The notes beneath the pieces are model-generated. The model searched no databases. It worked only from the letters and a program-made list of their open reading frames with translations, and was not told the origin of the DNA. A DNA stretch of 64,000 nucleotides from Cladopsammia gracilis (Eukaryota > Cnidaria > Anthozoa > Scleractinia > Dendrophylliidae): contig JAJGOT010000294.1 of NCBI GenBank assembly GCA_022457155.1, positions 640,001-704,000 of the forward strand, in the 5' to 3' direction. Each line of letters opens with the position of its first letter. The first letter of the stretch is position 1. Below are positions 31,734 through 34,720 of this stretch, in pieces. The position numbers and the translations under genes were made by a program.

Positions 31734-32717
31734 TTACAAGTCTTTCAGATCTTTCAGATCTATCCAAGAGTTGAATTTTTCTGGATAACCGCTCCACTTT
31801 ACTAACGCTTTACCTTTTCGAGCATCTCGTCGAATCACTTTCTCAATACGGTAAACATCTTGAACACTTGACGAAGTCAATTGCAACTCTTGCTCATAAA
31901 AAGTACCCGTTATCTCCTCACCCATCTCATCCTTTATTTTATAAGTTATCGGATTAGTGTATTGAATCTTATTGATAATAAAAATCTCTTCAGTCCAATT
32001 CGGTGTGTAACCTTTATCGAAAACAGGACGTTTATATTTTGATATTCGAACTTTATCACCAACTTTAAATTTCGGCTTATGCGTATTCATCCGTTTCATC
32101 TTTCCATACAGATTTAAGTAAACAGCACTTTCATTCTTTTTCTTCGACGCTTCCACAGGCGTCATCCCAATACTTCGGTGTTTTGTATTATTGTATTTTT
32201 TCAATATCTTCGGTAACACATCATAATACACGGTATTGTTTTGAACGGTGAACTGCTTAAACATTTTCTGTTTTATCGTACGGTTCCATCTTTCACAAAC
32301 AGTAGATTTTTCTTCATTCTCTGTCGAATATATTGTTATCTTATTTTTATCCAACAGTTCTTTCATATTCTTATTGTAATACTCTTTACCCTTATCAGTC
32401 CATAACATTTTCGGTTTTCTTCCTTCTTTGAATATTGTTTTGAACGCTTCTGTAACGGTCTCTCCCATTTTATTCTTCAGCGGTACAATCCAACCGTATT
32501 TACTGAAAACATCTAACACCATGAGAAGATATCGATATCCCTTATTCCACTTACTTAATTTCTGCATCTCAACAAGGTCAGAACACCATATCTCATCGAT
32601 ACCATTAACAATAACACGCCGCCGAGTAAACTTTCGTCTTATAGGTTTATGCAACTCGTCAGCTAACTTTTCTTGCCACGTCTCTACGTTTTTACTCGGC
32701 GGCCTTATCCGTTTTTT
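31734..32717 (-). CDS. int: Retroviral-type DDE integrase with C-terminal chromodomain, expressed by -1 frameshift?
   Basis: Catalytic triad D (CSDLVEM), D (WTDKGKEYYN) and E (CERWNRT), with 60 and 33 residues between them, followed by an SH3-like region. A chromodomain lies at the C-terminus (YRIEKVI...KALVKWSGY...WIDLKDL). It should insert the element with 6-bp duplications, and the chromodomain may steer it to particular chromatin. There is no ATG before the first catalytic Asp: the first in-frame ATG (the Met of CSDLVEM) comes after it. The family-typical KLADELHKP region is preceded by open codons that reach back into the PLA2 gene, where the heptamer AAAAAAC puts the two frames together by a -1 shift. 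Start given here is that heptamer. Splicing is the alternative. Confidence 0.93.
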   Translation of the reverse strand, partial: KKRIRPPSKNVETWQEKLADELHKPIRRKFTRRRVIVNGIDEIWCSDLVEMQKLSKWNKGYRYLLMVLDVFSKYGWIVPLKNKMGETVTEAFKTIFKEGRKPKMLWTDKGKEYYNKNMKELLDKNKITIYSTENEEKSTVCERWNRTIKQKMFKQFTVQNNTVYYDVLPKILKKYNNTKHRSIGMTPVEASKKKNESAVYLNLYGKMKRMNTHKPKFKVGDKVRISKYKRPVFDKGYTPNWTEEIFIINKIQYTNPITYKIKDEMGEEITGTFYEQELQLTSSSVQDVYRIEKVIRRDARKGKALVKWSGYPEKFNSWIDLKDLKDL

Positions 32718-33304
32718 GAAGCACCCAGTCCAAGTATTCTTTTACCTTTTATAATCCCTTGAACAGCTGCAGTACCCCAGGGGCGATCTTTATATGGAAT
32801 TTTTGAAATTTCATCAAGCATTATATCATCTGCTTTATGTTTGTCTTTCAAACTTTGTGCTTTACTATATGCGATATCATGCTTTTGACAAATAGCATCA
32901 AGGTTATTTATTGGGTCTCTAATCTTTGGGTCATTTGATTTCAAACGCTTTTCTACTTTTGTTCCAGGACCACAGTAATTATATTTTTTAAAAGTTGGTG
33001 TTCGCATATGTAATTCTCCAAATTTTGATAAATGTTTTTGTATATCAACCTCACCACCGCGGTGAAGCGGATCGAGTCTTTTCGATAAGTCTCCTGTGAA
33101 ACTATCCAAACCCTGATCTATATACTTATTAATGCCTGATTTAATCTTTTTCTTTACAAAGTCTGATTTGACGGCTTTTGACGCCGCTATTTTTCCTAAA
33201 TTGTAAAGACTTTTCATACCTGATTTCATAGCTATCTCTCCAAGACTATGACTACCTTCCACATCAAAAAAGCCCCCACCATGTGAGGGCTGAACTAGTT
33301 TCCC
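32705..33304 (-). CDS. Phospholipase A2 domain protein (virion-associated type), entered by -1 frameshift?
   Basis: Carries the secreted/parvovirus-type PLA2 signature: calcium loop YCGPG and catalytic pair HD (CQKHDIAYS), separated by the usual spacing. The N-terminal part is basic and Lys-rich with a Gly/Phe motif. In DNA viruses such a domain opens endosomal membranes during entry, and in Polintons it is considered a virion protein. The open frame starts only two codons before the heptamer GGGAAAC and has no ATG at its beginning. The first in-frame ATG (33229) would drop about 25 residues but keep the PLA2 domain, so internal initiation is possible. In related elements, as I recall, the Cys-rich domain and PLA2 form one protein, which fits readthrough from the gene upstream. 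It ends three codons after a second heptamer leading into integrase. Confidence 0.85.
   Translation of the reverse strand, partial: GKLVQPSHGGGFFDVEGSHSLGEIAMKSGMKSLYNLGKIAASKAVKSDFVKKKIKSGINKYIDQGLDSFTGDLSKRLDPLHRGGEVDIQKHLSKFGELHMRTPTFKKYNYCGPGTKVEKRLKSNDPKIRDPINNLDAICQKHDIAYSKAQSLKDKHKADDIMLDEISKIPYKDRPWGTAAVQGIIKGKRILGLGASKNG
32711..32717 (-). promoter_or_regulatory. Candidate -1 ribosomal frameshift site, PLA2 to integrase
   Basis: On the minus strand A AAA AAC sits in the PLA2 reading phase (codons TCA AAA AAC GGA TAA), one sense codon before the PLA2 stop at 32705-32707. The integrase frame is exactly -1 and is open through the site (previous -1 stop eight codons upstream). Downstream, GCCGC...GTGGC could form a short stem. 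A AAA AAC is one of the most efficient known -1 heptamers in retroviruses. Confidence 0.75.
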
Positions 33305-33453
33305 GAACTCTTAATGAAACGGGTTTTCTTGATTCCACAATTAGCACAAGTGCACCAAAACATTGGTCTACCATTTTTAGCTGTCATATAACCGGATGGT
33401 TCAGTACAGCCAGTTTTTATTTTTTCCTTGACGCAATACGTTAACGGTTCCAT
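33295..33453 (-). CDS. 52-residue Cys-rich protein, DUF5679-like
   Basis: The short protein has Cys at positions 7, 16, 34, 36 and 39, a YCVKEK start and an ANCGIKKTRF end. This layout resembles the small DUF5679 zinc-ribbon domain found in large DNA viruses and Polintons. One Cys of the usual first knuckle appears replaced (CVKE). The ATG directly follows the motif CGTATAATAAA. Its stop codon TAG abuts a GGGAAAC heptamer, so it probably forms the N-terminal domain of a frameshift product with PLA2. The family call is from memory of the pattern. Confidence 0.65.
   Translation of the reverse strand: MEPLTYCVKEKIKTGCTEPSGYMTAKNGRPMFWCTCANCGIKKTRFIKSSGN
33298..33304 (-). promoter_or_regulatory. 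Candidate -1 ribosomal frameshift site, Cys-rich protein to PLA2
   Basis: G GGA AAC in the phase of the upstream 52-residue gene (codons TCG GGA AAC TAG), directly before its stop at 33295-33297. The PLA2 frame is exactly -1, with its preceding stop (TAA, 33311-33313) only two codons upstream of the heptamer. G GGA AAC is a proven slippery sequence in some retroviral gag-pro junctions. Confidence 0.72.
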
Positions 33454-33478: not shown

Positions 33479-33503
33479 CTTTTTAATTTTAAAATTAATT
33501 GAA

Positions 33504-33962
33504 TTAATTGAAATATTTTTTAATAAACTTTTCATTGTAGTTTTGATTATCGATTTTGAATCTACTCAAGCAATCATAAAATGATTTTTTGTAAATATTA
33601 TCAAGAAAATATAAACAATAATAACCGCATCTTACCGAATTTATAGCTTGAAATGGGTAACCGATATTGTATTGGTATTCCATGCCTAATTTATCAGCAT
33701 AATCAATGAAATCTTGTGGTGGTGGTAAACAAAACGAATCAAAATAATAGATGAGATTTTTATTTTTGACATAACTACATACCCAATGTGTTCCGTTCCC
33801 TATCTTATCATCAAGATTAATTATACAACATCCTGTTTTATGTATATGACTTACCGTTTGATCTCTCGAAAAAATACCCTTGAAATCGGGTATTTTTAAA
33901 TATTTTACCCATAATTCCAGGTCAAAATTACTTAACGGTACATCCCTAAATTTGGGTTTTTT
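33504..33962 (-). CDS. pro: Adenain-like cysteine protease, reached by -1 frameshift from the pVI-like gene?
   Basis: About 150 residues. Catalytic order as in adenovirus-type/Ulp1-fold proteases of Polintons: His in GTHWV, Asp in YYFDSF and Cys in RCGYYCLYF, with the family's PLSNFDLE-W N-terminal block and an IFSRD motif. It would process virion precursor proteins during capsid maturation. The frame is open from exactly the first base of the heptamer AAAAAAC (the preceding -1 stop TGA is at 33963-33965). The first ATG lies after the catalytic His and Asp, so independent initiation would give a dead protein. The frame overlaps the end of the pVI-like gene (stop 33932-33934). Frameshifting is the simplest explanation. 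Splicing cannot be excluded. Confidence 0.9.
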   Translation of the reverse strand, partial: KKPKFRDVPLSNFDLELWVKYLKIPDFKGIFSRDQTVSHIHKTGCCIINLDDKIGNGTHWVCSYVKNKNLIYYFDSFCLPPPQDFIDYADKLGMEYQYNIGYPFQAINSVRCGYYCLYFLDNIYKKSFYDCLSRFKIDNQNYNEKFIKKYFN

Positions 33963-34720
33963 TCACCCCATGATCCCTCAAAAGGCGGTGGATAGTATGG
34001 AAACCTTGGAGAGACCTGTAATCCTCTTCCTCTCGATGATCTCGGTACCTGTAATCCGTAACCTTCACTCGGACCTACAGTCAACCCTTTTCCAAAAAGT
34101 TTTGAAGCTAGCTCTATAGCCATAGGAATTCCAATTGCAGCAAGTGTTCCTAAAAATCCTCCGTTCTGTTGTCTTTTTGTTGCTTTGAACGTTATTCCAC
34201 TACCGGTCTGTAAACCACTACGTATAATATTCTTTTGCCCTTGCGTCAATCCTTTGATACGTAGTAGTTGTGGAAGAAAATCAAACGGGACCGTAATTCC
34301 GTTACCAAAAATCTTATCAATACCTAAACTTCCCAAAGCGCCTAGCGCTCCTGTAGCTAAATGAGGTAATACCTTTGTAGCCGCTTTTGTTGCTAAAGGA
34401 ACCACCTTTGTAGCCGCTTTTGTTGCAAAAGGTAGTAACTTTGCACCGAGTGATAACAGCGAACTCCACAAACTTCCACCTTGTATTACCGCTTTACGAA
34501 TCTGTGTTTTTGATATTTTGATATCAGCACCGGTACCGTTTTTTAGATTTCTCATAATCTTATTAATCTGAGTTTTTGTCAACATCAGCTCGTGCGACCC
34601 TTTCAGATTATTTTTACTCAACCTTATCGTAATTTCTGAATTATCCTCATATGCTTTTTTGAGTTTATGTAGCTGTCCTTGAGACAAATTTACTCCATAT
34701 GCAAAATACGGTGTAGCCAT
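33932..34720 (-). CDS. pVI-like minor virion protein (membrane-active type)
   Basis: 262 residues. The N-terminal third is a charged domain (GQLHKLKKAYEDN...IRLSKNNLKG). The middle is an Ala/Gly-rich hydrophobic region with an internal repeat ATKAATKVVPLATKAATKV, followed by LATGALGALGSLG. The C-terminal third is Gly/Pro/Tyr-rich. In Polintons a protein of this type sits next to the protease and is compared with adenovirus pVI, which is processed by the protease. Here it is also the in-frame upstream partner of the protease through the heptamer at 33956-33962. ATG at 34720. Assignment is by position and composition plus my recollection of cnidarian homologues. Confidence 0.7.
   Translation of the reverse strand: MATPYFAYGVNLSQGQLHKLKKAYEDNSEITIRLSKNNLKGSHELMLTKTQINKIMRNLKNGTGADIKISKTQIRKAVIQGGSLWSSLLSLGAKLLPFATKAATKVVPLATKAATKVLPHLATGALGALGSLGIDKIFGNGITVPFDFLPQLLRIKGLTQGQKNIIRSGLQTGSGITFKATKRQQNGGFLGTLAAIGIPMAIELASKLFGKGLTVGPSEGYGLQVPRSSRGRGLQVSPRFPYYPPPFEGSWGEKNPNLGMYR
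33956..33962 (-). promoter_or_regulatory. Candidate -1 ribosomal frameshift site, pVI-like protein to protease
   Basis: A AAA AAC in the phase of the upstream gene (codons GAA AAA AAC CCA), eight codons before its stop at 33932-33934. The protease frame is exactly -1 and begins to be open at this very site. Confidence 0.75.

Follow-up and report, generated by a model that had tools for sequence, protein, structure and literature searches.

In the gag-pro-pol chain of retroviruses, the rve integrase lies at the far end. Betaretroviruses, such as mouse mammary tumor virus (MMTV) and Mason-Pfizer monkey virus (MPMV/SRV-1), have two successive −1 sites in this chain and rely on double frameshifting, several of them with spacers of 7 nucleotides (nt) (PMC3835772; here and below, statements on cited papers refer to the parts of them that were available). 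We describe a 17.8-kb Polinton of the coral Cladopsammia gracilis, contained in a 64,000-nt stretch of contig JAJGOT010000294.1 (assembly GCA_022457155.1, positions 640,001 to 704,000; hereafter the window), which holds three gene junctions: J1, between a probable virion protein and the protease; J2, between a DUF5679 protein and a phospholipase A2-like protein (PLA2); and J3, between PLA2 and the integrase. From the sequence features set out below, we hold it highly likely that a single reading unit, DUF5679 > PLA2 > integrase, is expressed through programmed −1 ribosomal frameshifting first at J2 and then at J3, much as betaretroviral gag-pro-pol is, the integrase again being at the far end.

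The signals are also comparable. In the table of PMC3835772, the heptamer of betaretroviral gag-pro sites is A AAA AAC or G GGA AAC and the spacer 7 nt, like J2 and J3 in kind; the table lists pseudoknots for these sites, whereas the Polinton stimulators look like plain stem-loops. The element differs from a betaretrovirus in being double-stranded DNA (dsDNA), with no reverse transcriptase among its Pfam matches, and in its leading products, the DUF5679 protein and PLA2 instead of Gag. In bacterial insertion sequences (IS elements), the shift takes place on bacterial ribosomes and A AAA AAG is the typical site, unlike in this element. IS elements and the TBE transposons of Oxytricha resemble it in being mobile DNA, with a transposase whose expression makes use of a frameshift or would require one; the available part of PMC5009743 describes for them no double site that involves virion proteins.

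Polintons/Mavericks and adintoviruses share with the element a type B DNA polymerase, an rve integrase with chromodomain, an A32-like ATPase, a double jelly-roll capsid protein and terminal inverted repeats (TIRs). Few DNA viruses of eukaryotes are known to use programmed frameshifting (PMC8310308), and −1 frameshifting has been suggested, from KnotInFrame predictions, at some adintovirus Penton 3′ ends and Hexon-adenain fusions (PMC11071296). The latter case concerns the same virus group and a capsid-protease junction that resembles J1; a first, sequence-only reading of this DNA, which knew of no description of such frameshifting in Polintons, was therefore too strong on this point. The suggestion is confined to KnotInFrame predictions for Penton and Hexon, and the available part of the paper makes no mention of PLA2 > integrase, comparative structure or a double frameshift. 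In Sf Mavericks, the integrase is an ORF (open reading frame) of its own (PMC5803895), whereas here it is reached through two frameshifts. No literature on frameshifting at the PLA2 or integrase junctions of this group was found in a search that left many subscription papers outside: in the available parts of PMC8097293, PMC5803895, PMC10120064, PMC12721341 and PMC12567637 the term "frameshift" stands for a mutation, an error of sequencing or the case of a different virus, and in those of PMC11071308 and PMC12220804 the word was not found.

The junctions comprise the following features, listed in the direction of reading:

33932..34720, minus strand: ORF of a Gly/Ala-rich protein between the capsid protein and the protease, upstream partner at J1
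33956..33962, minus strand: J1 slippery heptamer A AAA AAC, in phase, 7 codons ahead of the stop
33504..33962, minus strand: adenain-like cysteine protease ORF (weak matches), −1 to the upstream protein, first Met at residue 94
33295..33453, minus strand: DUF5679 zinc-ribbon-like protein (PF18930), 52 amino acids (aa), ATG at 33453, putative zero-frame product of the double-frameshift cassette
33298..33304, minus strand: J2 slippery heptamer G GGA AAC, abutting the TAG stop
32705..33310, minus strand: PLA2 ORF (PF08398), −1 to DUF5679
33271..33291, minus strand: J2 hairpin AGCCCTCAC-ATG-GTGGGGGCT, 9 base pairs (bp), starting 6 nt past the heptamer
32711..32717, minus strand: J3 slippery heptamer A AAA AAC, in phase, one codon ahead of the PLA2 stop
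31734..32741, minus strand: rve integrase with chromodomain (PF00665, PF00385), −1 to PLA2, first Met at residue 59
32691..32703, minus strand: J3 stem, 5′ arm, 13 bp, 7 nt past the heptamer
32618..32630, minus strand: J3 stem, 3′ arm, with a 60-nt loop between the arms

All three junctions are read on the minus strand, and in each case the downstream frame (protease, PLA2 or integrase) is −1 relative to that of the preceding gene. At J1, the upstream stop occupies 33934-33932 and the −1 ORF is open from 33962 on, which gives an overlap of 31 nt; at J2, the DUF5679 stop TAG lies at 33297-33295 and the PLA2 ORF opens at 33310 (16 nt); at J3, the PLA2 stop lies at 32707-32705 and the integrase ORF opens at 32741 (37 nt). 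Because the overlaps are this short, each −1 frame opens shortly 5′ of the heptamer and the zero frame ends soon after it. These coordinates confirm the −1 frames and the in-phase AAAAAAC, GGGAAAC and AAAAAAC that the sequence-only reading had claimed for J1, J2 and J3. It had also held three such heptamers hard to ascribe to chance mutation. The chance of an in-phase XXXYYYZ in overlap-length stretches of the element's coding sequence (CDS; the DUF5679 ORF left out of this background) is 3.8% for J1, 1.8% for J2 and 4.6% for J3, the product being 3e-5. In-phase AAAAAAC occurs at 4 of the 5029 codon positions of the background CDS, and two of these 4 are J1 and J3. The claim that no ATG precedes the catalytic residues of protease and integrase holds in the window as well, where Met first occurs at residue 94 in the protease ORF and at residue 59 in the integrase ORF, against putative catalytic residues (His 59 and Asp 55, respectively) that we place by presumed analogy with adenain and rve integrases. 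Unlike these two, the PLA2 ORF has its first Met at residue 28, ahead of the PLA2 domain.

A stimulatory stem-loop or pseudoknot is expected about 5-9 nt downstream of a slippery heptamer. The J2 and J3 stems had not been noticed in the sequence-only reading and are new in this analysis. The 13-bp J3 stem is perfectly paired and, at −22.7 kcal/mol, ranks in the top 0.08% of 2406 coding positions of the element, a background that contains the sites themselves; the J2 stem (−15.4 kcal/mol) ranks in the top 0.42%. The J1 stem is ordinary, an equally strong stem being found at 9% of positions.

Other copies of this genome strengthen the interpretation for J2 and J3. PLA2 matches number at least 150 in the assembly (878 Mb in 1469 contigs), where the 150 best of 2311 candidates were scored; 100 of the other 149 copies were analyzed, picked non-randomly by rank and variety, which gives 101 loci with the window. 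The PLA2 frame is −1 to DUF5679 in 97 loci (+1 in 2, fused in 2), and the integrase frame is −1 to PLA2 in 97 (fused in 2, +1 in 2). Across the 97 −1 copies, J2 carries GGGAAAC in 73, TTTAAAC in 8 and AAAAAAC in 1 (total 82), GGAAAAC in 14 and only AAAAAAA in 1; J3 carries AAAAAAC in 80, GGGAAAC in 15 and no heptamer in 2, both of which lack an overlap. The heptamers on which mammalian ribosomes shift most readily include the three XXXAAAC types seen at J2 and J3 (PMC5009743). The J2 codons vary (TCG GGA AAC, AAT TTA AAC, AAA AAA AAC and others) and stand ahead of TAG, TAA or TGA; the slippery XXXAAAC class is therefore kept while the peptide differs. Twelve copies (L075, L080-L082, L091, L099-L105) combine GGGAAAC at J3 with GGAAAAC at J2, hairpin sequences being present at both junctions.

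Spacing is equally regular. When the best stem was sought 4-10 nt past the heptamer, the J2 spacer was 6 nt in 72 of 82 copies, 5 nt in 4 and 7 nt in 6, and the J3 spacer was 7 nt in 82 of 95 and 8 nt in 1, with 12 weak stems at 6 nt (8 copies) or 10 nt (4 copies). The strongest 5% of 2525 background positions is reached by 96% of the J2 stems and 87% of the J3 stems. The copies with weak J3 stems (L040, L041, L043-L048, L050-L053) have 7 bp there, despite the strong family B J2 hairpin with its GAAA/GAGA loop. Altogether, phase, heptamer class, spacer and stems at J2 and J3 recur across copies grouped into five families.

The hairpins are replaced by equivalents at the same place. At J2, AGCCCTCAC/GTGGGGGCT, AGCCCCCAC/GTGGGGGCT and AGCCCGCC/GGCGGGCT are found among others, and family B has GCCAGTCA, a GAAA or GAGA loop and then TGRCTGGC. 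Over 40 distinct J2 sequences, 95.0% of cells are paired, against 44-62% when the pairing is slid; there are 28 double-change cells, and covariation is 0.303 against 0.134 in shuffles, none of 500 shuffles reaching any of these three values. One pair appears as UG in 18 sequences, GC in 12, CG in 6, UA in 3 and otherwise in 1, while the outermost and innermost pairs fail in 10/40 and 6/40 sequences. Within family B alone (6 distinct sequences), only U-A/U-G variation and one unpaired cell are seen. The J3 stem is paired in 97.2% of cells over 37 distinct sequences, against 32-51% when slid; one pair changes from C-G to U-A in L034 and L035, RNAalifold recovers the same 10-bp core, and in five copies of the alignment a deletion starts just past the GC-rich arm and leaves this arm intact. 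The shuffles leave the relatedness of the copies in place. In seven copies of families C and D, the 40 nt past the J2 stop are 78-98% identical to the window and the PLA2 proteins only 53-58%, so recombination has probably spread the cassette. The replacement of hairpins and heptamers by equivalents is the stronger argument here.

The pattern extends beyond the sampled copies. A J2 cassette pattern with variable stem letters matches 898 places in the genome (counted by pattern alone) and its reversed control none; a J3 hairpin pattern of family E, the fifth family, distinct from that of the window, matches 664 places, again with no match of its control. Together, these matches suggest that the assembly carries a very large Polinton population. 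Twenty family E places, chosen among the first 100 of the list, were read: 19 have the −1 frame, AAAAAAC and a spacer of 6 nt, and one is +1; for 2 of the 19, the PLA2 frame was assigned from few motifs. With a fused database protein as query, 16 further loci were obtained, 7 of which are −1 at J2 with GGGAAAC ahead of the stop (L077, L121-L125, L128; TGA in six), the rest having GGAAAAC (2) or being −1 with neither heptamer (2), fused (3) or unreadable (2). Six of these loci belong to family E. In the protein database, 77 of 103 PLA2 homologs reach past the LGLG motif and 53 of them have [STPA]KN there, as NNA AAA AAC would encode; the other 24 fit less simply (11 with another K-N, 13 without), and the further 26 end earlier. 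Viral contigs searched by integrase and by integrase, PLA2 and virion-protein alignments gave no relatives except the distant Polinton-like L001, whose layout is different. Genome contigs searched by PLA2 gave six bacterial contigs with PLA2-like matches, with no Polinton in L006, the one examined, and phage records gave no match.

Several observations weigh against reading J2 and J3 as frameshift sites. The shuffle z-scores of the window folds are moderate and depend on length: for J2, −2.2 at 40 nt, about −1 at 60 and 80 nt and −1.9 at 120 nt, with −1.2 in a repeat; for J3, −0.8 to +0.7 up to 80 nt and −2.5 at 120 nt, where the far arm is included; for J1, −2.5 at 120 nt only. Two of the J2 covariation measures do not stand out, since the number of pairs with a double change (3; shuffles 3.6) is reached by 481/500 shuffles and that of further pair types (10) by 404/500; at J3, the corresponding figures are 54/500 for pairs with a double change and 500/500 for pair types. 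The 14 GGAAAAC sites at J2 fall outside the strict XXXYYYZ pattern, an exception comparable to MMTV pro-pol, which reportedly uses G GAU UUA, and 12 of the 95 J3 stems are weak, at about −7 kcal/mol (family B plus L040 and L041). The copies share ancestry and have recombined, and their counts are not independent events. One continuous frame, finally, occurs in 2 of 101 loci at each of J2 and J3, and further open PLA2-integrase copies exist, which means that a fused protein can arise without slippage. In 12 copies fetched for a test of fused linkers (10 with open frames, 2 with one stop), an in-phase XXXYYYZ lies in the linker of 10, AAAAAAC in 4, and a hairpin stands behind the A-run in 7 of the 8 where an A-run was located; the signals thus outlive the split, or do not need it.

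These fused copies, together with database homologs in which a single frame encodes PLA2 plus integrase or the full set of three domains (P0100, P0018 and others), bear on a result that the sequence-only reading had named as refuting it, namely relatives in one frame and lacking the heptamer. One-frame relatives do exist, while 10 of the 12 linkers keep a heptamer. The fused copies seem to derive from the split form, although the change may also have run the other way. Fused relatives show, too, that the fused polypeptide is a natural product.

J1 stands apart. Its frames across the 101 loci are −1 in 82, fused in 6 and +1 in 6, with 7 unresolved, so that 82 of 94 resolvable loci are −1. Within the 82, window included, AAAAAAC occupies the window's position, 7 codons ahead of the stop, in 40, and the same-phase row that follows it in the window (C CCA AAT, then A AAT TTA, down to 33947) is found as CCCAAAT in 36 and AAATTTA in 39. 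The overlap is 31 nt in 39 copies; other copies have longer overlaps with A- or G-rich runs. No conserved stem was found across the copies, the TACCGTT/AACGGTA stem of the window not being kept, and this too counts against slippage. A serious competitor, to which we give a somewhat smaller chance, is that J1 is no frameshift site, the protease being made otherwise or via polymerase slippage on the A-run, as the missing stem and the variation of frames would allow; the recurrence of AAAAAAC and of the 31-nt overlap at the same place, the opening of the window's −1 frame at the A-run and the absence of a Met before His in 39 of 78 proteases speak against it. J1 is regarded, with modest confidence, as a frameshift site; it may give this lineage a third −1 site, one that is poor in structure. 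In adenovirus, a virion-protein peptide activates the protease, and because of this one may speculate that a virion protein-protease fusion would make sense. The frameshift interpretation that the sequence-only reading gave to all three junctions is thus strongly supported at J2 and J3, by phase, heptamer, spacer and stems across copies, and at J1 only in part. The control of dosage and the building of PLA2 and integrase into particles that it further proposed are hypothetical.

Of the alternatives for J2 and J3, separate translation of the downstream ORFs, by internal initiation, reinitiation after the stop or leaky scanning, survives best and is still quite unlikely. It would suit the in-frame ATG at residue 28 of the window's PLA2 and the Met that precedes the catalytic residue in 33 of 95 integrase and 39 of 78 protease ORFs; however, Met is missing ahead of the catalytic Asp in 62 of 95 integrases, in fused relatives the domains form a single protein, and the in-phase heptamer and stem would be left without a role. 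At J2 and J3, heptamer and phase are conserved within this genome, and the missing ATG in part of the copies.

Small spliced introns that join the frames are less probable still. Since frame-joining GT-AG pairs of at least 40 nt occur in every −1 copy tested (97 for J2, 95 for J3, 43 for J1), the sequence is compatible with splicing. The same GT-AG position pair is kept, however, in at most 67% of copies at J2, 61% at J3 and 79% at J1 (a near-identical group), a weak test in which indels were not realigned, and splicing gives no account of the in-phase XXXAAAC, the near-constant spacers or the covarying stems.

Least probable of the three is that the frame breaks reflect decay, assembly or homopolymer sequencing errors in one continuous gene, A-runs mimicking slippery sites. 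A-runs make up two of the three window heptamers, some copies and database homologs are indeed continuous, and multicopy viral insertions may collapse in assemblies and give false frameshifts (PMC10120064). Yet the same break recurs in 97/101 copies and 19/20 family E copies, J2 has GGGAAAC or TTTAAAC, with no long homopolymer, in 81/97, and a near-constant spacer with a covarying hairpin is not expected from errors. The ORFs are open as far as tested (protease 77/82; PLA2 94/97, at least 195 aa; integrase 90/97, to the end of the fetched stretch), the median pairwise ratio of nonsynonymous to synonymous substitution rates (dN/dS), for pairs of moderate divergence, is 0.22 for the protease, 0.30 for PLA2 and 0.25 for the integrase, and the TIRs are identical; decay at J2 and J3 is contradicted by this recurrence and selection. 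Stop-codon readthrough at J2 is rejected because it keeps the zero frame while PLA2 lies in −1, and all three stop codons occur there.

In summary, frames, phase, heptamer class, spacing, structure, purifying selection and the lack of a conserved AUG are directly observed, and J2 and J3 have, in sequence, what −1 frameshift sites call for: an in-phase heptamer, a spaced stem and conservation within one genome. From these we infer slippage itself, its rate, the processing of the polyprotein and the entry of its products into particles. J2 and J3 are thus very probably programmed −1 frameshift sites that would yield DUF5679, DUF5679-PLA2 and DUF5679-PLA2-integrase in falling amounts. Most ribosomes would stop after the 52-aa zinc-ribbon-like protein, while the hairpin 6 nt past G GGA AAC would stall a fraction of them, which would slip by −1 and add PLA2. 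Part of the ribosomes reading PLA2 would slip again at A AAA AAC before the long stem and add the integrase. The integrase would then be made only as the rarely added C-terminal part of a polyprotein with three domains, which the adenain-like protease presumably cleaves afterwards. It is possible, although we put this forward tentatively and by analogy, that DUF5679-PLA2-integrase is a virion-borne entry-and-integration polyprotein, present in few copies per particle and built in through the abundant DUF5679.

The surrounding element has the following ends and further genes:

27050..27441, no strand: left TIR, 392 bp, identical to the right TIR, with the target duplication AACGAC outside at 27044-27049
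27352..31668, minus strand: type B DNA polymerase (PF03175, E 2e-54)
34754..36064, minus strand: double jelly-roll capsid protein (PF21738)
38946..39647, plus strand: A32-like packaging ATPase (PF04665)
44432..44823, no strand: right TIR, with AACGAC outside at 44824-44829

A 6-bp target duplication is typical for Polinton/Maverick elements, and by its genes and ends the element is assigned to this group; the 392-bp identical TIRs and the duplication mark its insertion as recent. The protease scores 18.6 bits against PF00770 (cut-off 21.3), and in the PDB it weakly matches S273R (E 0.0085) as well as adenain (E 0.077). The Gly/Ala-rich protein has no Pfam match and is probably a virion protein. 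Integrase homologs with names, among 120 listed, come from a Stylophora coral adintovirus, Stylophora pistillata and Oculina patagonica, and thus point to a stony coral as the probable host. A short ORF at 37345-37677 (minus strand) appears chimera-like by eye: it resembles the protein at 36535-37314 (259 aa) at its start and the one at 37687-38871 (394 aa) at its end. The protein at 43293-43847 (minus strand) has a Rho_N match and repeated Cys-containing motifs, and the start of the DNA polymerase ORF has a weaker Rho_N match, below the cut-off. Outside the Polinton, inverted repeats at 21184-21313 and 24320-24769 (47 bp at 98% and 113 bp at 97%, respectively) are possibly other transposons.

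The arrangement described here is that of a dsDNA virus-like transposon with, very probably, two successive −1 sites backed by covarying RNA structure, and hundreds of places in the assembly match the cassette patterns. Annotation of the integrase as an independent gene would overlook such a double-frameshift arrangement. If the virion-borne polyprotein is real, the incoming particle would bring a membrane-breaching PLA2 together with the integrase at a fixed low stoichiometry, as retroviral Gag-Pol brings integrase, and Polintons would be DNA viruses that integrate and follow the packaging logic of retroviruses, but with no reverse transcription.

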